64,000 nt of DNA, from NCBI GenBank assembly GCA_016490735.1, contig JAEMWC010000196.1, positions 65,001-129,000 of the forward strand. Direction: 5' to 3'. Position numbers and translations under genes: made by a program. Source of the stretch: Pachyseris speciosa. Its lineage: Eukaryota > Cnidaria > Anthozoa > Scleractinia > Pachyseridae. A model generated the notes under the pieces. The model made no database searches. It was not told the origin of the DNA and was given only the letters and a program-made list of their open reading frames with translations. Shown piece by piece: positions 19,101 to 61,520 of this stretch (within the stretch, counting starts at the first letter, position 1; the number at the start of each line of letters is the position of its first letter).

Positions 19101-22100
19101 CTTTATGTCCACCATTAGTAGTGTTGTGTTGGATTCAATGTTAGGACTCTGCGCACTGAAAGAGGAAGTGTATCCGGGATATGAGATTGCATGAAGAAGC
19201 GCGGCTATAGTAATACAGCAGTAAAAAAGAGGGCTTGAATATCAGAAAACCCAAGTGCCATATGATAGGTGAAAGTTGCTATCTTTCATAACGTCTAGCA
19301 ATCCCCTTCTTAGGTTGTGTTTGTGCTATGATGCTAACTATTTTCAATATCGAAGAACAATTATAAATAAACAATTGAAGTCAAGGAAACGACTGGTATA
19401 TCTATGAAATTGTTCACGGTAGACACAACAAACAAATATCCTACCCAAATCTTTGAACCTCAGCCATAACGAAACCATACGATCCACCAAGAATGTTATT
19501 CACCTGCAGGTAAAGGATCAGAGTAAAAACAACGGAAAGTTATTAAATAGATAAGGTCTTCAGGCACATGTTCATCCTTTAGTGATTACTGTAGTTTTCA
19601 GTGTAGCGAAATTACTGGAAAGTTGAAATCCAACTGATGATTACCATGGTGACGAAAACCTAATGGAACCACAAACGAAAAAAGATGGAGGAGGAAGTTA
19701 AAGGGGCAGTGTCATGGGTTGTTAGTAAAACTCTGAAAATCTACAGAGACCTGTTTACCAATGGCAAACGAAATATAATAGCCAAAGTTTTCCTCAAAAC
19801 GGCTATCTTGACTCGCGGAAACCATTCTTAAGTGTATTTGGTTACTCGTAAGCAAGATGAAAATGAATCCCACTTGAAAACGTCGGCCCGACGTTTTCAA
19901 GTCCTCCCCTTGCATTTTCGATGAACTTCGTAATATCTTAGTGTGGCTCACTGTTCTTATAAAATTTACACCGTTTTATCACAGTGAGGATCCAGCAGCA
20001 ATTCATGAATAAAACGTCGCTAAAAATTGATTAAGCAAATTTATGGTAAAAATATCAGTACCAATATCAAATACCAATGGCAAACGAAATATAATAGCCA
20101 AAGTTTTCCTCAAAACGGCTGTCTTGACTCGCGGAAACCATTCTTAAGTGTATTTGGTTACTCGTAAGCAAGATAAAAATGAATCCCACTTGAAAACGTC
20201 GGCCCGACGTTTTCAAGTCCTCCGCTTGCATTTTCGATGAACTTCGTAATATCTTAGTGTGGCTCACTGTTCTTGTAAAATTTACACCGTTTTATCACAG
20301 TGAGGATCCAGCAGCAATTCATGAATAAAACGTCGCTAAAAATTGATTAAGCAAATTTATGGTAAGAATATCAGAGGTAATTCCAATGATACTGCCCCTT
20401 TAAAACTTCATAACCTGACCTTTGTTCAAGGTTATTATGAAAATTACTTGTTTTCTAAGCTGTCCCGGCACTACAATTCAGAACTTAAGTTTTTTTTCAA
20501 GATATCAATAGACATTTTTAGCTTGTAGATTTTTTTTTTAATGTAGAGCACGTGATGTTACCCTAGAGAAGTGTTTCTTTAAATTTCGCCTTATTCACGT
20601 GCATATGTACGCATAATTTATGAAAAGACAAAAGGCAAATACCCTTAAAACGATCACGTAGTCTACATTGGGAAAACAAAACCTACGAGCTAAAAAGGTC
20701 TATTAACTTCAGAGTTGCTTTGTTAATGAAAGACCCAGTCATTGATACCTCATCCGTTACATTGATCTTCATTGTCTGGAATTGTCGGGAAGTCGAGTTG
20801 AGAAGATCCAAGGTTAAGAGCTGGTTTGCAATTATAAGCCACATGTTAAAGTGATACACTGAAAGAAGAACATTGCAATGGCAATGAAATTAAAGAAAGT
20901 CTGTTTTCTTTTCCAGGATCGCGAAATTTTATAAAACACAAGCTTTCGATTCCGAGGCGAAATCCTTATCAAGTGATGGAGTTTTAAGTTTTACTACGTG
21001 ATTTTAAATTGTTAAAAATAACACATGACAAAGTGTTCCGGTAGGTCACCGGGAGCTCGCATCCGCTGCCTCTATTCAATAGTAGTTTGCGTTCCTCTTT
21101 TTCCTCCAAGCTTTCCTTTTGTTAGGAGTTGTATAGTGAGATTTGTATAGTGAGAATTTGCCACTCAAGTAATTCGGACCTGTACAGCAATTCGCGTCTA
21201 CAGAAAAAGCTAGTGTACGAAAATTTGATCAAGTTGCAACTCACATTTGGCGCCGTACACCTCCACTCTGAGGCAGTTCCAATCTTGTTGAGCAGTTGGA
21301 TGAAAGCGAATGTAGCGAGCTTCCACTGGTATTGTCAAATAATGCTTGTCAATAGTGGCATAGTCACCTTTCCGCTGAAACACCTTTAAGGATGTAAATA
21401 CAAGAGTTATTATACACAGTGTATAATAGAACCGCTCAACCTTTTTTTGTTTGATTTATACTTAAAATTGGTCAAATCAACTATGCATCAACTCTTATTA
21501 CCGCGATAATTTTCCAGAGAATACATTAATTGAATACGCTATCCAGCAATCAAGCAGAATTGTCGCTTGGCTAGTGATTTAATATTACTGAAATAAATGA
21601 AATAATGAGTTTGAAAGTATATAACTTGGCATTAGATATTCCAAGAAAATGCATAAGACACGCAGCATACCATATATACGAGGCATTAAGTATGGTTTTC
21701 AATCAAACTCTATTACAAGGAATATTTCCGGAAAATTTTAAAGTTTCAAAAGTCACACCAATAGATAAAGGGTGTGAGGAGATGGATCCTTTTAATTATC
21801 GACCTATCTCTACACTCTCTGCACTAACTCAAATTTTCGAAAAACGCATTTGTAAACAGCTTGTAAACTATTTGGAAAAGCATGAAATCCTATACGAGTT
21901 CCAATTTGGCTTTAGAAAGGGACATTCAACCTCACAAGCCATTCCAGAAATTGCTGATAATTTACGTCATGCGATAGATAATAATTTGTATTCTTGTGGC
22001 GTGTTTTTGACTTTTCCAAGGCATTTGATACGGTGACCCACACAATTTTACTTTAAAAAATGGAACGGTACGGGATACGGGGCGTACCCCTCCAATTTTT

Positions 22101-23565: not shown

Positions 23566-26500
23566 AAAATGGCTAGCGGTATTGCTCGTGGGCGCGACCG
23601 CATGACGACGACGACGACGGAGTCGCACAATAATTAATAATAACCTAATAACAATCATAATAATCCAACATGGCGGTCATACTCCACCTGGACCACCTGA
23701 CAAGCTGGTTTACAGCGTACGACTTTGATACTGGACATCAATCTTATAGCCAATTGACACCTGTCAAAACAAGGCATTCGCTGACCAGTGTCACATGACC
23801 ATATCGCGGGCTCAAATTAAGACCTCATCAAGGTCAGTTGTTTTTTTTAGTTGACCGCTGACCAGGTACTTGCTTTCGATTTAATCGCGGGCTCAAGCCA
23901 GGTGTCGGACACCCAAACCAAAACGAGGCTTAATTTTTTTGCACGAGTTCTGCGGCTCGAAATTTCTCATTCAGTTGGTTTCTTCGTTTTGAGAAAAACA
24001 ACTTCATCTTCTTCCATCGGATCGGAGTTTGTCTTTAAATTCGCGTAAAAAGTATAAAAATCAAGAACTTGTCAAAAGATACTCCGAAAGGTGAATTTTC
24101 AAGTGACGAAAGGAAGAGCGAAAGATTTTTCTCAAGTAAAGCTTCAAACTTGGATCGATTGTGCGGTTAAAAAGACAGTACCATTCAACGCTTCAGCGGC
24201 TTTCACTTTACCGCGGTATCTTGCCTCTCACCAATAAAAGTCACTTAACAGTTAAACAGTATTAATGGAAGGAACGAGTAGCTCAGACTCTGTGGAAGAA
24301 GTCCTTTCTTCGGACAAACAGTTTGTTATTTTTGCGGATGCTTTTTTTTTTTACTTTACTGAAGCTTACGTATTTTCAAATGGTAGAAATCTCTGCAACA
24401 CAGGACAGCGAGGTACATTAAATAAATAGACAACAACAATACAACAATACTTTATTTCACCCCATGATTACTACAAGATAAAAACAAATAATAATAATAT
24501 GGCAGATGATAGGGGTGCTGGCTGCCCGAAATAACCTAAAAGTTAAAAATGCCAGGCAGTCAGTGAAAAGAAAAGATGATTAAATGTTTAGGTCAGAGAC
24601 ACAAGAGCAAACAGACACAAACACACACAAAAACAGAGATAAACAGAGTCACGTAAACTACCAGTATATTAAAATTAAAATTAAATATAATAGGAGCTTA
24701 ACATTTGGTTTAATCGTTGTTACTTTTATTCAGGAGTGATACTTGTATTTTGCTCTCTACTGGATATAAATAACAATCATCTGTACCCGTTTTGGACGCA
24801 AAGAAGTAGTTGAATAGTTTGTTTGTTTTGTTACGTTGTTTTCTTTGCAAGCGAACGAGTGTTTTTACTCGGCTTGGCTGACTGTTTCTCGACCTTGGTG
24901 TCTGAACAGCGTTAAGAAACTTTTGGCCTTATTAACACGTAATCGCAATGAGTCCTCGTAAAATCAAGGATTAAAGGCGGAAACGCAAGCTCGAGCAAAA
25001 AAAAAAAGATGAAATGCATGTGCATGTGCACGTCTCAAACTCTGACATGTAGTTGTCAAAATTCTGTCAAAAATGTCAAAAACCTGCGCGCTTCACTGTC
25101 ATTTGACACTGCCTTCGTCGAAGGCGGCCTGTAAAGAACAATTAAGTTTCGCCGTCTATAAACATGTCGCGTTTGGATGTTAAAAACAGCGAAATGGGTT
25201 GACTGGCTGCCTGGCTTTGATAAATTTTATAGTGGACGGGTCTGCGAGAGAAATGCTGGTGTGGTTTTGCAGGAGCTTTCTTCGTTAACTGGATGATGTT
25301 TTGCCACTGAGAGTCATTAATTGAAGAAGGTCCTTCGGAAGTCATGGGAAGTAACAGTAAAACTATCAAAGCACTTTAGTGTTTTGTGTCAGCCAAGGAA
25401 AGATTTTGTGGGAAATGGCGGTATTATTCAGCTCTGTCGCGTTCCGAGTGATTACTGCCTCAGCGATTCATGTTGACTGCTCTAAACGATCAGGTGCGGA
25501 CCTCTTTTTTGTCTTTTCTATGGACATTTATATCAAAATTGCTAAGCAAGTTTTCTAGCTTAATACAAGATATTTTGATACTTGTCTAATTTCTCCACCT
25601 TCCCCAAGAATGTTCGAAGAAATATTATTCGTATTGTGCTTTGTTTTCTTGTAATATGTTTGTTGTTCTGTTGTTCCTGAAACGCGGTCAAGTCCTGTTG
25701 ACTGCTGTAAACGATCAGTTTGTAACCTTTATTTTCTTTTCTAGGGGCATTTATGTCAAAATAAATACTGATTTTTCCAGCTTACTTAGTACAAGCTATT
25801 TTTATTACTAGCTAGTCTTCTTTAATTTCTCCACCTTCTCCTTTTTCGAGCTAACACTCGCATCGTACTGTGTTCGCTTGTAGTGCTTTTTTTATCCGCT
25901 TTAAATTCCTTTACGCTTTCATCTGAAAATAGTTAGGACTCAAGAAGGTCTGCCTTTTTTTTTAAACGTTTTCTATCTAAAACCCTTCGTTTTCTCTGCT
26001 GCTGCTCAATTGTTTCGGACATAAATTAAACTGGCCCTAATAGAGCCATGCGAAGTTGCCCGGTGAGAGTGTGCAGCTCCGATTCTAGGCTTGTGAATTG
26101 GAAGATGTGCGTGCTAGTGGTAATGCTACACCGAATGTTGGTCTCGAAGTTCCGCCGAATTTTTCTCAGGCGCAAAATGCACCAAGATCGTACACCTCGC
26201 TAGAAACAAGACAAATGGAGAATCCAGGGACAGCGCGGACTGTTGCGGAAACAACGGCGGGTTTAAATTTGGTAGTGAATCAATTAAGCCGCGAACGGAT
26301 CGATGGTGAACTATATCCTGGGGAGGAAAGATTAGAGACATACACGGATATTGAAGCGAATAACAATGACGGAGGTCAGTTAGGTGCAGTTAATGAAGAA
26401 TTTACTTACTTGGATGCTCGTGGAGAGATGCAAACTGTTGCAGAGACTACGTTGGGATTGAATACGGTCGCGAATCTCTCACTTCGGGAATTGACTGATA

Positions 26501-28862
26501 GTGAGGTATCTTTATTATCTAAGGGCTTAAAATTTTGCCCAACTCCAAGAGACCTTGATAGATATAGTTTACGTAAGGACATTAATAACTTTATTAGACG
26601 TATAAGACTTAAGGAGTACTTCTATGATGGGGATAATGTCGGGGGGGATTTTTCGAGTTTTCCCGCCTTTAGGAATAAATCTGTGTGGTGCCCAGAACGG
26701 GGAAGGGAGTTGGCCATTGAAGCATATGCTCAGGCGGTAGAGCAAGAGATATTATCATCCATTATTAATGAGAGAGGTATTTACAGCAATTTGTCAGAGA
26801 CTGAGCGCGATGCGCTAAGAAATCTTAAATCGTATGATGACATTATTATCAAAGAGGCAGATAAAGGGTCTGGGGTTGTAGTAATGGATAAAGATAAATA
26901 TATTACTGAGGCTTTTAGACAACTAGAGGACCGTAACGTTTATAGGGAGACTCCTGTTGATCTTACTCAACGGATTTCTGAACTGGTTAATGATAGAATT
27001 CAGAAGGTTTTTGATGATGGTTACATTGATGACAAGACGCTTGAATATCTTTTGATAAACAGCAAGCCTAGTGCGGGTCGGTTTTATTTATTACCTAAAA
27101 TACATAAGAAGGGTTGCCCGGGGAGGCCGGTTATCTCGGGGTGTGGGACGTGCACGGAGAGGGTCTCGGAATTTGTGGATTTTCATATTAAACATTTGGT
27201 TCCTGAAATACCATCCTACATTAGGGACGCTAAACATTTTTTACAGGTGCTTAATGACTTGGGGAGGTTGCCGGAGGGGGCTATATTGGTTACAGCCGAT
27301 GTAGTCGGCCTATATCCTCACATTCCCCATGAGGAGGGGTTAAAGGCTTTGGGCGAAGCTTTGACTAGATCCACTCACACTACTGTCCCTCCTGATGTTT
27401 TAGTGGATTTGGCTAGGTTGGTGCTCACTAACAACAACCTTACTTTCAATGGTAGACATTTCCTACAGGTCCTGGGGACAGCAATAGGGACAAAAGTGGC
27501 GCCGTCTTATGCCAATATCTTTATGGGTAAACTAGAATCGGACCTATTTGAACAAGCATCAATAACGCCGCTTTTCTGGCGTAGATTTATAGATGACATC
27601 TTTTTTATTTGGACGGAGGGAGAGGAGAGACTCAAAGAGTTTATGGGGCTTATGAACTCGTTTCATAATACTATTAAATTCACTTTTAGCTGGTCGTCTG
27701 AGCAAGTCAACTTTTTAGTTGTTAGTGTTTTGTTAAACGAGGGGGTAATTTCCACAGATTTATATCGTAAGCCTACGGACAAACACCAATATTTGTTTCA
27801 TTCCTCTTGTCACCCTAATTCATATAAGAAAGGTATCCCTTATGGTCAGGCCCTTAGAATAAGACGTATATGTTCCACGGATGCTTTGTTTGATAAACGG
27901 GCTGAGGAATTGTGCCGTTACTTGGTTATAACAGGGAGCATGTGGAGGGGCAAATAGATCGAGCGCGTAGGATTCCCAGGGAACAAACCCTTAGGGATAA
28001 GCAGCCTGCTTGTAATAAACGTATTCCTTTTGTGGTCACATTTCATCCGGCACTCCCTTGTATTTCTAAAATATTACACAGGCTTCATCCTGTTTTGCAA
28101 TCTTCTAGGCGTTGCCAGCTGACCTTAGAACAGGTGCCCATGGTGGCTTTCCGGCGTCCTAAATGCCTTAAGGACATTCTGGTACATTCCGAACTTAAGA
28201 CACCAGTTACTGTTAAGGGTTGTGGTAGATGTGGGGATAGACGATGCAGGATTTGTGATTTCTTGGATGAGGGCATTTGTTTCAAAAGTAGAGTTACTGG
28301 GAGAGATTTTGTGATTAATTTTAAGATGGATTGTAATTCAGACCACGTAGTCTACCTATTGTCTTGTGCAATGTGTCAAATGCAATATGTGGGATCTACT
28401 ATTAACAAATTTAGGACTAGATTTAATAACCACAAGGCTAGGATTAATGCGCACAGAGGACTATCCTCTGAGAATAAACTTAAAGACGATGTTATATACA
28501 GGCATTTCAATCAGGCAGACCATCATGGTTTGAGTGATGTTAGAATACAGTTAATAGACAAGTGTTCAAGTGAGGAATATCTTAGGGATAGGGAGGCCCA
28601 GTGGGCATACCGTCTTCGATGTATTTATCCACTGGGTCTTAATAGTGATGATTTTTTCTGTAGTAGGAATCCTCGAAGGGATTCGCTCTCATTGCTTCAC
28701 TTATATGTAACGCGCGCGCGAGCAGCTTTAAGTCTCGTATTAGCGTCTCACATCAGCTAGCGTATATCTTATAACGGTTTTAACCGCTTTCACATCAGTT
28801 GCCCTGATGAAGTCTTTTAATAAAGACGAAATATTGGCAAAGTCGTATTTTCCAGTTCTTGG

Positions 28863-28915
<53 letters not shown>

Positions 28916-29246
28916 AGGTTAATTTGAGAACAGAAATCAACAACTAAGTAATTAAGTGAAAATGTGGCTCAGCCAGGAATCGAACCTGGGTCTCCAGATT
29001 ACCGGTCGGATGCCTTAACCACTAGGCCACTGAACCAACCACACTGGGTTGACACATATTTTTTACTGTACAACACATACACAGTGTGGCCTTATTTTTA
29101 TGGTAAGGTCCTAGGAGACAATTTCACACATTTTCTGCAACCAGGATCACGTCACTACTCCCCGATCGATCAGCGATGCAAGGCCAAATCCCCCTGGAAA
29201 TTAATTATATATACTTATATATATATAATTAATTAATTATATATAC

Positions 29247-29326
<80 letters not shown>

Positions 29327-30729
29327 ATGTCAAAAACATCCACTGTCGTGGTTGTGTCTCCAGACGAATTAAAATAATAGCCAAGAACTGGAAAATACGA
29401 CTTTGCCAATATTTCGTCTTTATTAAAAGACTTCATCAGGGCAACTGATGTGAAAGCGGTTAAAACCGTTATAAGATATACGCTAGCTGATGTGAGACGC
29501 TAATACGAGACTTAAAGCTGCTCGCGCGCTGTAAAGCGCGCGCGTTACATATAAGTGAAGCAATGAGAGCGATATTAAAATAAATCCCTTCGAGGATTCC
29601 TACTACAGAAAAAATCATCACTATTAAGACCCAGTGGATAAATACATCGAAGACGGTATGCCCACTGGGCCTCCCTATCCCTAAGATATTCCTCACTTGA
29701 ACACTTGTCTATTAACTGTATTCTAACATCACTCAAACCATGATGGTCTGCCTGATTGAAATGCCTGTATATAACATCGTCTTTAAGTTTATTCTCCGAG
29801 GATAGTCCTCTGTGCGCATTAATCCTAGACTTGTGGTTATTAAATCTAGTCCTAAATTTGTTAATAGTAGATCCCACATACTGCATTTGACACGTTGCAC
29901 AAGACAATAGGTACACTACGTGGTCTGAATTACAATCCAGCTTAAAATTAATCACAAAATCTCTCCCAGTAACTCTACTTTTGAAACAAATGCCCTCATC
30001 CAAGAAATCACAAACCCTGCATCGTCTATCCCCACATCTACCACAACCCTTAACAGTAACTGGTGTCTTAAGTTCGGAATGTACCAGAATGTCCTTAAGG
30101 CATTTAGGCCGCCGGAAAGCCACCATGGGCACCTGTTCCAAGGCCAGCTGGCAACGCCTAGAAGATTGCAAAACAGGATGAAGCCTGTGTAATATTTTAG
30201 AAATACAAGGGAGTGCCGGATGAAATGTGACCACAAAAGGAATACGTTTATTACAAGCAGGCTGCTTATCCCTAAGGGTTTGTTCCCTGGGAATCCTACG
30301 CGCTCGATCTATTTGCCCCTCCACATGCTCCCTGTTATAACCCCTTTTAACCAAGTAACTGCACAATTCCTCAGCCCGTTTATCAAACAAAGCATCCGTG
30401 GAACATATACGTCTTATTCTAAGGGCCTGACCAAAAGGGATACCTTTCTTACATGAATTAGGGTGACAAGAGGAATGAAACAAATATTGGTGTTTGTCCG
30501 TAGGCTTACGATATAAATCTGTGGAAATATATATATATATATTTGAAGACAGTCTGATCAACTGAAGATCTGACTTGGCATATTTATTACTATATAGTTT
30601 CGTACCGCACAACCTGTACGGCACTCATCAGATAAATAGGCAAATGCCTTACCACAACCCTTAACAGTAACTGGTGTCCATTCCAGTCTATCATTCCAGT
30701 CAGCGATTAAAAAAAGAAAAGCTGTAGGC

Positions 30730-30821
<92 letters not shown>

Positions 30822-33800
30822 GCCTACAGCTTTTCTTTTTTAATCGCTGACTGGAATGATAGACTGGAATGGTGTTCCATCGAACATCATGCATGCACCT
30901 TCTTTAAGCAGTCTTAAGTCCTTTCTAATACATTATTTGTGTCAATTTTAAATCAGATGTAGCTTGTAAGTGACAAGTATGTAATTTAATTAGGTTAGCT
31001 TTGGATTGTATTTCAATTTTACTTCTTAATTTTTAGTGTCAATCACAAATCAGGGGTGACTTGTAAGAGAGAAGTATTCGATTTAATTTGATTAGGTTAG
31101 GTTTGGGCCACGTTTAAATTTCACCTCTTAGTTTTTAGAATGTGTAATATCAGATAATATTCTTTGTATGGGAATTAACTTTCTCCCAATCATTCTGCAG
31201 TCATGCAATTTTTTGTTTTGTATCGACTTAGTTGTATTCGCATGACAAAGTATTATTAAACTTTAAACTTAAAATTAAACTGAAAGTAAGCTCTTTCTCA
31301 TCAATGTACACATCCTTTGGCATGGACTTCCTTCTCCCGCATACAGTCTTTCAATTAATTTTATTAGTAGCTGGTCACACCAATATGGGATGTTGGAGTT
31401 GGGCCTGGCTGCATGGCGTGTAGACGTCTCTTCTAACGCTCCGCTAAAAGTGAGCTCTCTGCCAAGCTTCTGAACCAATTTAAATGCTTTCGATAGCCAC
31501 TGACAGCTAAAATCACAAATTGCCTCACTGGCTAACGCTTGGAACTTCTTTAACTAGTTTATTTGACTACTTAACATAACTTTATTTTTCTTAATATTTC
31601 CGTTACCTTATTGCTTTGTTCTTAACAAGAAATAATCTATCGTATGCAAATTTCTACTAAATGGCAAACGAGCTCGATTCATTCACACTAGCAACCAATC
31701 CTGCTGGGACTCAAATCAACAATGAGTTATTTTTATGTGTTGTATTTCACACTTTGTTAGATGTATTTCGCCTGTTCAAAACTACAAACATCGCGCTTGG
31801 TTGTATTAACTACGATAACTATAGTATGCTCTTATTCCATGGTTTTTCCAATAGATAACTTTCTTCTTTTCTTTTAATGGATCTAAAAGTATGTTCCCTT
31901 AATGTGAGGAGTCTTGGCGACCGGTTAAAAAGACGGGAAATGTTTAATTGGCTAAGAAAGAAAAACTATTCAGTTTACATGCTTCAAGAAGTGCACTGCT
32001 CGGAAAAAGCAATTCCTGTACGGTCTGCCGAATGGGGATATAAAACTCTTTTTAGCTGTTGTACCAGCGCTAGAGGAGGAGTCGCTATTTTATTCAATAA
32101 TAATTTCAACCTCCAACTCCAACGAACATACTCGGACTCTAATGGAAGATTTATCATCTGCGACATTATAGCAGATAACAAATCCGTGACGATGGCTGTG
32201 CTCTATGCACCTAATGACGATGATCCAAGTTTTTTTCTGAATTTCTTTGATCATTTAAATGATTTTAAATGTGAAGAGTTAATAATCGGAGGAGATTTCA
32301 ACCTGGTTTTGGACCTAGACATTGATAAAAAAGGCGGTCTCGCTAAAACACATGCGGAATCAGTGAAAACACTAAACGATTTCTGCGCTCAATTTGATCT
32401 ACTAGACGCATGGAGAATATTGAATCCGGACACCCGCAGATATACTTGGCGGCGCAAACGGCCAGACATCCACTGCCGTTTAGACTTCTTCCTTATTACT
32501 CAAAGCCTAATGTGCAACATTACGTTCGCTAATATATCAATTGGATATAGAACAGATCACTCCCTAATAGAAATCACAGTCGCTACCCACTCGAATATGA
32601 GAGGCCCTGGCTAAAAGCAGAAAAAACCGATCGAAGCTCAAAGAAAATGGGTCGCGGACTGCAAACTCGAAACCCAAGAAAACATTGATTGGAACACAGT
32701 GTACCGATCATCTTTTCTGTGTACAAGGATCTCAAAACTAATTGTCTTCCAATTTAAGCTACTACACAGGAGATTAGCGACTAATAGTTTTTTAACAAAA
32801 ATAAACCTACAGGATAATGAGCAGTGCACTTTTTGTCAAAATGATACGGAGTCTCTGATTCACCTCTTCTGGACTTGTAGCGTATCCACTCTTTTCTGGC
32901 AAGATTTTAAGCAATGGGCAGTTAATCGTGGAGAGCTTTCAACTACTATTAATCTAACGGCATATCTAGTATTAGGATTGAATCCAAACAGGAACAAGAG
33001 AGTAGACTTCTACTTTTTGATCGCCAGATTTTTTCTCTGGGTATGCAAAACACGTAATACTTCCCCAAAATAGAAAATTTCTCTCTCTTCCTCTCACATT
33101 ACGATACACCGAAATCCAACAGTTAATTAGTACCACATTGGCAAAACCATGCACATCTTTCCTTTTTTTTTTCTTTTTCACTTCATCATCAACTGTTTCC
33201 TTTTCTTTCTTTTTTTTTTTTTTTTTGAAATCGTTTAAAAATGGAAAGGTAATGTAATGTAACGTTTCTTTTTAATGTTATGTACCGTAACTTAGTGCAT
33301 TGTAATGTTGTGAAGTTATGTAATTGATTATAAATTAAATAAATAAATAAATAAATAAAATCTTGTGGGATGTTTGGATGACATTTGGCATTAATATTTA
33401 ATGGGATTTCTGATGTTTGATGAAGTATGTTGTGTAATTTCAAATGTACATAGAGAAATGTGACACTAGTCCTTACTTTTCTTGAAAAATAGAAAATCAA
33501 GTTAAGATGGCTAACACGGATTTCCGGACGTTTGTTAATTACCTTGATAATGGTATCAACCAAATGCCCAATATTTTATTATCAAGTTGCTTGGTCTTGC
33601 ACTTAACTGGCTAGAAGAGCAACTGGATTTCTTTTTGAAAAAACTGTAGGTGCATTGATTGATGAGCTTAATGTTAGCAAGCAGTTTTTGTGATAGTAAT
33701 GTCAAGAAGTAACTGATCAAAAGAAATATCTTGGTCTTAATTCATATCATCTCAATACTTTTATTGATTTCCATGTATCTTTCGATTCTTTCATAATTTT

Positions 33801-48372: not shown

Positions 48373-49066
48373 AATAGATTGCTGGTAAAGTACCGAGTTC
48401 TCGTTGCGTTGCTGCTTTGTATGTCTAAACTTCACACTGATGGATCACTCACGAGGCACCTGGGCTATATTCAGATTACCAAAGAATGTCTATTTATAGC
48501 TATTTGCAATTCACAGAGACAACTAATTGATAATTACTCTGATTCCACTTCGCGCGGACAGCATCGGGAGTATTGTTTACAGAACTACCCTAACTGTTTG
48601 TAGCAGTGAAAGATGCGATGTCCCGATTTTGCGAAAGCATAAGTTCATATAACGTTCTCTTAAGAAGTAAATAATAGAAATTGAGACAAAATATACAAAT
48701 TGATTCTTCGCTCAATTGTAGGGAAAAGCCCTGAGGCCATCATCTAACTTGAAGGTAGAAAATTTTCACGAAGGCATATGCGCACGTAAACTTCTACAAA
48801 GAGTAAAATCTTTACCCGGGAACTATTAGCAAGTCAAAGGCACGTAGCCTTTAAAAAAGACAAAAAACGTCTTCATGTTAATGCAAGCCAAAAATAGTTA
48901 TATAGTTATGTAAAGATTTTAAAGTAATGCCAAGTGATTCAAATGTGAACTAGCAACTTATTATGCTGCTCAGTATTAATATTATATAATTTTACATAAA
49001 TTTGTTCCGCTGTCCCAAGTGTAATATCTATCTTGTATCTAGTTTTTTGCTGTCATTATATATATA
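48373..49066. other. Upstream region of the giant gene
   Basis: Contains the TATA box noted above. Otherwise it is AT-rich without recognised genes. Near 48775-48845 a word series (CTTCTACAAAGAGTAAAATC, CCCGGGAACTATTAGCAAGT) recurs in diverged form at 49510-49570, so the DNA between may be inserted. Confidence 0.35.
48491..48498 (-). promoter_or_regulatory. TATA box of the giant gene
   Basis: The minus strand reads TATAAATA here, about 120 bases upstream of the signal-peptide ATG at 48372. This would place transcription start near 48465 with a 5' leader of about 90 nt. An ATTGCAAAT octamer-like word lies just upstream on the same strand. Motif match only; AT-rich DNA gives such matches by chance, but the spacing fits. 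Confidence 0.38.
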
Positions 49067-49226
49067 TATACATAAGTTGAATGATTAAAGAGGAGGCATC
49101 GATTCTCTGTGACTCTGAGTTACGCGCCTAAGAGCTCGTCAGGTTCTGTCTGACGAGCGCTTAGGCGCGAAACTCAGAGTCACAGAGAATCGATGCGTCT
49201 TCTTTAATCATTCAACGTATGTATAC
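49067..49226. mobile_element. Long near-perfect foldback
   Basis: Arms of about 75 bp, read as AAGTTGAATGATTAAAGA... GCATCGATTCTCTGTGACTC... GCTCGTCAG, with a 7-base loop GTTCTGT. Mismatches are few, so the duplication is young. TA-rich DNA flanks both sides (49058-49072; 49293-49345). Confidence 0.88.
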
Positions 49227-49292
49227 TTAGCTCTGCTACCACAGCATTGAGCACTTTATGCCAAGGTAGACTCTACCTCCACATGTATTAAA

Positions 49293-61484: not shown

Positions 61485-61520
61485 CATACCACTGATGAAG
61501 GGCTAAGCCCGAAACGTATG
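61485..61520 (+). ncRNA. Hammerhead-like hairpin, Penelope 3'-end relic
   Basis: CATAC, CA, CTGATGAA, stem GGGC-TAA-GCCC, GAAAC, GTATG. It has the same layout as 28799-28840 (outer stem, CUGAUGAA, inner stem, GAAA) with different stems, so the structure is kept while the sequence changes. No Penelope coding sequence is visible nearby. Confidence 0.42.

Follow-up and report, generated by a model that had tools for sequence, protein, structure and literature searches.

Complete type I hammerhead of the coral Pachyseris speciosa within a probable solo 5' leader from a Penelope-like element

The hammerhead ribozymes of Penelope elements usually lack helix III and loop contacts (PMC7761336 and PMC6155905, on Cervera & De la Pena 2014 and Lunse et al. 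2017), and retrozymes house the majority of the classical type I hammerheads known in animals; in metazoans they form tandem direct repeats and are expressed as linear and circular RNAs of 170-400 nucleotides (nt) (PMC7229834). For PAc, a Poseidon element of Anolis carolinensis, a tail, internal initiation, and cutting and extension of both strands have been described, with uncleaved RNA as the main substrate in vitro (PMC11167929). Copies ending in TA repeats or in a tail, and tandem or inverted copies, have been published for Penelope elements (PMC3846280, PMC11167929). Here we analyze a hammerhead within 64 kb of Pachyseris speciosa DNA (positions 65,001 to 129,000 of contig JAEMWC010000196.1; "the window"). 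We conclude, with a probability of about 0.72, that it lies in a lone (solo) copy of a 5' leader, that of a Penelope-like family called X, which carries a complete hammerhead in each of its pseudo-long terminal repeats (pseudo-LTRs).

Like the minimal Penelope hammerheads, that of family X is of type I, occupies pseudo-LTRs whose direct repeats could permit two cuts per unit, and lacks a stem-I loop; it differs in its helix III, which is complete, at 3-4 bp, in X as in the other families examined. With the metazoan non-LTR retrozymes of PMC7229834 it shares a short, dispersed unit and a type I hammerhead that is complete, but here the units are solo or head-to-head and are pieces of an autonomous element. 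An earlier reading made from the letters alone (the sequence-only reading) had stated that the kind is known from Penelope-like elements and retrozymes, in agreement with the published systems. The coral genome contains Penelope families whose hammerheads are complete and covarying; those of X would sit where the transcript is predicted to begin.

The window hammerhead and its fold

On the minus strand, from 30648 to 30577, the motifs CUGAUGA and GAAA and the cleavage triplet GUA are present (Table 1). The type I hammerhead that the sequence-only reading had claimed was found with all of its core positions and stems where that reading had placed them, including the cut after 30588. Stem II has 9 bp, two of them G-U pairs, and a loop AGGUU; stem III pairs ACU with AGU around a loop AUAU; and stem I has 7 bp, beyond which a GGCA/UGCC pairing can be drawn across a 6-nt bulge. 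This outer 4-bp stem draws on 30647-30648, two bases foreign to the element. The native stem I of X consists of 7 bp, one bulged U and another 7 bp, without a stem-I loop, and the window copy has one substitution within its outer stem. Set against the family, this outer stem and its 6-base bulge arose by accident at the junction: the 7 plus 4 bp proposed earlier can be drawn, but they are not the native pairing. The bulge is absent from family X, whose native stem I has only the single bulged U, so the idea that it docks on the stem II loop finds no support in the family.

The motif is rare in random sequence. A descriptor with the exact core, stem II of at least 4 bp, stem III of at least 3 and stem I of at least 5, applied to both strands, matched once in the window; in first-order Markov sequence totalling 2.496 Gb the same loose descriptor matched 22 times, or 0.0006 expected matches per 64 kb, and a strict form (stem II at least 8, stem I at least 6) matched nowhere in that 2.496 Gb. 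The site was also scored with R1, a covariance model whose training set includes family X and one row of family T from locus L010 (Table 1). Against RF00163 (Hammerhead_1), the core, helix order, GAAA and cleavage position align across the full model, whereas stem II of the window copy is longer than the consensus.

Covariation was examined in nine hammerhead families of the coral's own genome (G000, 984 Mb). In these, 92.3% of the cells are paired, 12 of 16 pairs show double changes, and the covariation score is 0.788 as against 0.200 in shuffles (0/500). The six families that had not been picked by pairing gave 92.7% paired cells and a score of 0.654 as against 0.225 (0/500). All nine families, of which U, V and T were picked with this as a condition, form the three pairs of helix III, as do all six families not picked by pairing; one of the three pairs varies, changing on both sides. 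A further covariation analysis, made on an alignment fitted to the model, was concordant. A type I fold with three helices is supported by covariation, helix III by one varying pair. By sequence and fold the window feature is a real type I hammerhead, for which self-cleavage is predicted.

Family X and the origin of its solo units

Family X is present in many young, near-identical copies: the 72-mer has at least 42 matches in the own genome, with 40 of 270 candidates scored, and the window unit is 94-98% identical to the X copies compared. Its difference from the best-matching copies amounts to 2 substitutions in 118 nt, which marks it as young and supports the sequence-only reading, by which it was active recently, on this point. 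At locus L010 two direct hammerheads 2560 nt apart enclose an open reading frame (ORF) of 717 residues without stops, and L009 has the same layout at a distance of 2555 nt, with the ORF split over two frames. The 717-residue protein has no Pfam match to reverse transcriptase (RT) or GIY-YIG, and putative motifs of both were read by eye; among 7997 candidates scored, 2629 are homologues, including one from Solemya velum (P0150, 55%) that carries GIY-YIG PF01541. Of 63 protein matches, 3 cover residues 1-717 with no stop. Pseudo-LTRs, partial tandems, inverted head-to-head pairs, a tail and AT-rich targets were all found in X. On these sequence features X is a Penelope-like element with a complete type I hammerhead in both pseudo-LTRs. 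Its start codon lies at q154 (q denotes positions along the X unit), well past the cleavage site. PAc resembles X in its tail ends, its AT-rich targets and a hammerhead near the ORF start, and use of uncleaved RNA would fit the X pattern; the hammerhead of PAc, however, overlaps the start of the ORF, and stems I and II are those described for it.

One kind of X end stops at q2609, where (TA)n follows, and the other stops in a hairpin "tail" near q102-109; the copies often form head-to-head inverted pairs. Genome-wide there are 115 matches with TA-type ends and 138 of tail or leader type, and reversed-pattern controls gave 0. The core and GUA are intact in 64 of the 73 TA-type copies that cover the core. 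Measured 5' ends of 89 of the 115 TA-type matches are distributed as follows: 43 copies reach at least 196 nt, and the others begin at q2391-2421 (7), 2488 (1), 2495-2503 (17), 2506-2510 (5), 2515-2520 (3), 2537-2554 (6) and 2560-2569 (7). The cluster of 17 at q2495-2503 coincides with the outer base of the hammerhead (binomial probability ~1e-10, the 9-nt range having been chosen post hoc); 8 of these ends lie in (TA)n, 8 are joined to an inverted X copy, and 1 is of another kind. Cutting in vivo should leave 5' ends at the cleavage site, and a search for such ends found no more than 2 among the 89 TA-type copies. In a new sample of 20 of the 138 tail or leader matches, 8 run to the edge of the sequence retrieved, and 4 of the other 12 begin at q2503-2506. 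A TATA-like box, TATATATAG, starts 35 nt upstream of A2503.

In the mechanism that we propose, a TATA promoter in the pseudo-LTR would start the RNA at about q2502, so that the hammerhead would be the first ~74 nt of the mRNA and cleavage would take 58-59 nt off the mRNA as a capped leader. Reverse transcription by the Penelope protein would begin inside the leader tail, on AT-rich DNA, and would run off an uncleaved 5' end, yielding solo units of 108 nt (TA-type) or ~168 nt (tail-type). The solos would then be reverse-transcribed 5' leaders of mostly uncleaved RNA. In the window, the minus-strand order is a coding piece of a second Penelope element, Y (30678-30650), 3 nt of filler, the X unit (30646-30539), (TA)n at 30527-30538, and Y copy 2, with the coding piece directly 5' of the unit. 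Template jumping in the course of Y insertion would be the simplest way for the unit to have become joined to Y pieces at each of its sides.

The same solo unit could have acquired its 5' end from structure instead of from a transcription start, the long stem I halting RT or the cDNA snapping back to prime itself. We regard this as a distinct minority possibility. Of the 17 clustered ends, 8 meet an inverted X copy at the stem, L029 consists of the inverse of q2576-2609 followed by q2501-2609 with both breakpoints at the stem base, and self-priming of Penelope has been proposed (PMC3846280), but another 8 of the 17 lie in (TA)n with no adjoining inverted copy, and the TATA-like box stands at a suitable distance. 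That the unit is a retrozyme, a small independent non-autonomous element spreading through circular RNA, seems improbable. It is small, its hammerhead is complete and not minimal, and published coral retrozymes measure 225-245 bp (PMC7229834); against this, its sequence is contained in that of the X pseudo-LTR, its ends are the TA and tail ends of Penelope, its lengths fall below (108 nt) or at the lower edge (~168 nt) of the published 170-400 nt, and the loci examined, which are no whole-genome survey, held solo or head-to-head X pieces and no direct tandem array of a short unit with a hammerhead. A retrozyme-Penelope chimera had also been entertained and was dropped when the unit was found to belong to the X pseudo-LTR.

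Very little speaks for taking the unit as the 5' pseudo-LTR of Y itself. It adjoins Y copy 2 in the same orientation and has a Y coding piece on its other side, yet this reading is contradicted: the motif at each Y 3' end is another, minimal one, the X protein shares 21% identity with the Y RT, and the unit recurs genome-wide in X elements. The link to Penelope in the sequence-only reading stands insofar as the hammerhead adjoins a Penelope element, but it is not part of that element. Least likely of all is chance resemblance in AT-rich DNA. Several results do weigh against the hammerhead itself. The Rfam scan gave no hammerhead match at the gathering threshold for the window site: the covariance search proposed with the sequence-only reading returned 23.4 bits from RF00163 (gathering 34; E 0.0027 for 501 bases). 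With ViennaRNA the isolated 72-mer reaches -17.4 kcal/mol in the hammerhead fold as against -20.1 for its minimum free energy (MFE) structure, another fold being favoured by 2.7; stem I forms in 5-7% of the ensemble and stem III in ~3%, and in three longer contexts the values are at most 4% and 5-17%. Of these, the sub-threshold Rfam score, together with a weak helix III (pair probability 0.21-0.24 in X), is what a chance origin can call upon; the absence of strict descriptor matches in the 2.5 Gb of random sequence and the conservation and covariation of the family tell against it, the covariation to the point of refuting it. The native X hammerhead is itself the MFE structure, at -24.5 kcal/mol. 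We retain the solo 5' leader of family X as the preferred reading.

Relatives and other features of the window

Table 1. Coordinates of hammerheads and Penelope-like elements in the window
Feature	Position	Strand	Remarks
Type I hammerhead, helices I 7 bp, II 9 bp, III 3 bp	30581..30638	-	Cleavage 3' of 30588; R1 62.9 bits, E 2e-15; RF00163 23.4 bits
Probable solo 5'-leader unit of Penelope-like family X, q2502-2609, complete hammerhead and 3' tail	30539..30646	-	98.3% over 118 nt to best X copies
Exact 29-bp Y coding piece (28199-28227 of copy 1)	30650..30678	-	Self-BLAST E 3e-8
Penelope Y copy 2, 5'-truncated within reverse transcriptase	29377..30528	-	96% to copy 1; GIY-YIG PF01541
Penelope Y copy 1	26089..28866	+	RT ORF 26089-27957; GIY-YIG ORF 27906-28760, different frame; 3' end precedes (TA)24
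Minimal hammerhead of Y, without helix III, extra A after CUGAUGA	28797..28842	+	3' end of Y copy 1; R1 22.5 bits, E 0.001
Minimal hammerhead of Y, without helix III, extra A after CUGAUGA	29401..29446	-	3' end of Y copy 2; R1 22.5 bits, E 0.001
Second complete type I hammerhead, family T, CUGACGA	49143..49188	+	R1 44.7 bits, E 4e-10; RF00163 28.6 bits, below gathering
Inverted head-to-head partner of T hammerhead, GAAA changed to GTAA	49106..49149	-	R1 12.6 bits, E 0.71, not significant alone

The window holds a second complete hammerhead, of family T, with a tail-like hairpin at about 49230-49253 and, beyond its inverted partner, (TA)n at about 49055-49075; the head-to-head pair covers 49055-49260. 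Family T appears to be tied to Penelope by these ends and by a similar core behind an X-clade ORF at L042. Of sister ORFs of X, 29 were listed (52-59% identity), and the 4 fetched, from three families, all have a complete hammerhead within ~200 nt downstream. A DNA pattern scan for the exact hammerhead gave no match in viral contigs or GTDB genome contigs, and relatives were found neither in the viral contigs searched nor, by DNA pattern, in the genome contigs. Alignment of the X protein to genome contigs recovered two loci in bacterial records. One of them, L042, is filed under a bacterial metagenome-assembled genome and has an X-clade Penelope ORF (54% amino acid identity) with a hammerhead core at the contig edge; in the other, L043, no hammerhead was recognised. 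Both are probably eukaryotic contaminants, and L042 is still an independent example. A palindromic repeat, C50 (L053, L119), showed no hammerhead core in the stretch read, which is partly N.

The 3' tail of Y resembles the hammerhead tail, but scores as high were reached by 1.1% of shuffled sequences and by 0.8% of stretches of the genome, and we do not take this as homology. At 30678-30872 lies a 195-bp near-perfect palindrome centred on (TA)n; its edges may carry a short duplication, GGTGT, and no hammerhead core was seen in it by eye. At 61492-61514, CTGATGAAGGGCTAAGCCCGAAA, flanked by CATAC and GTATG, resembles a further minimal hammerhead of Penelope type without helix III. Between the Y copies, 28964-29036 is a tRNA-Thr-like sequence whose 3' flank recurs after an X copy in L020; it may thus be a tRNA-derived short interspersed element. 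A 316-bp tandem duplication (19756-20374, 98%) contains no CTGANGA. Similar ORFs are repeated on the minus strand over 576-39273, and the two that were scanned gave one F5/8 type C and one REJ match; these ORFs are possibly a tandem family of polycystin-like genes.

Meaning for hammerheads in animal genomes

No literature on solo leader units, or on the mapping of 5' ends at Penelope hammerheads, was recognised in a search that covered mostly titles and the openings of abstracts, subscription papers lying outside it. As a wider and tentative conjecture, which we hold to be rather less likely than its negation, the dispersed complete type I hammerheads of animals, perhaps the metazoan retrozymes among them, may be Penelope 5' leaders, with RT starting within the leader and scattering uncleaved units of 108-168 nt into (TA)n. 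If so, retrozymes would be physically linked to the Penelope machinery, and genomic 5' ends would record whether the ribozyme had cut. With many X copies at hand, these ends may record the template of reverse transcription, and the present sample favours uncleaved RNA. The purpose of the ribozyme would become directly testable, and stray hammerheads in animal genomes would be offered a simple source.
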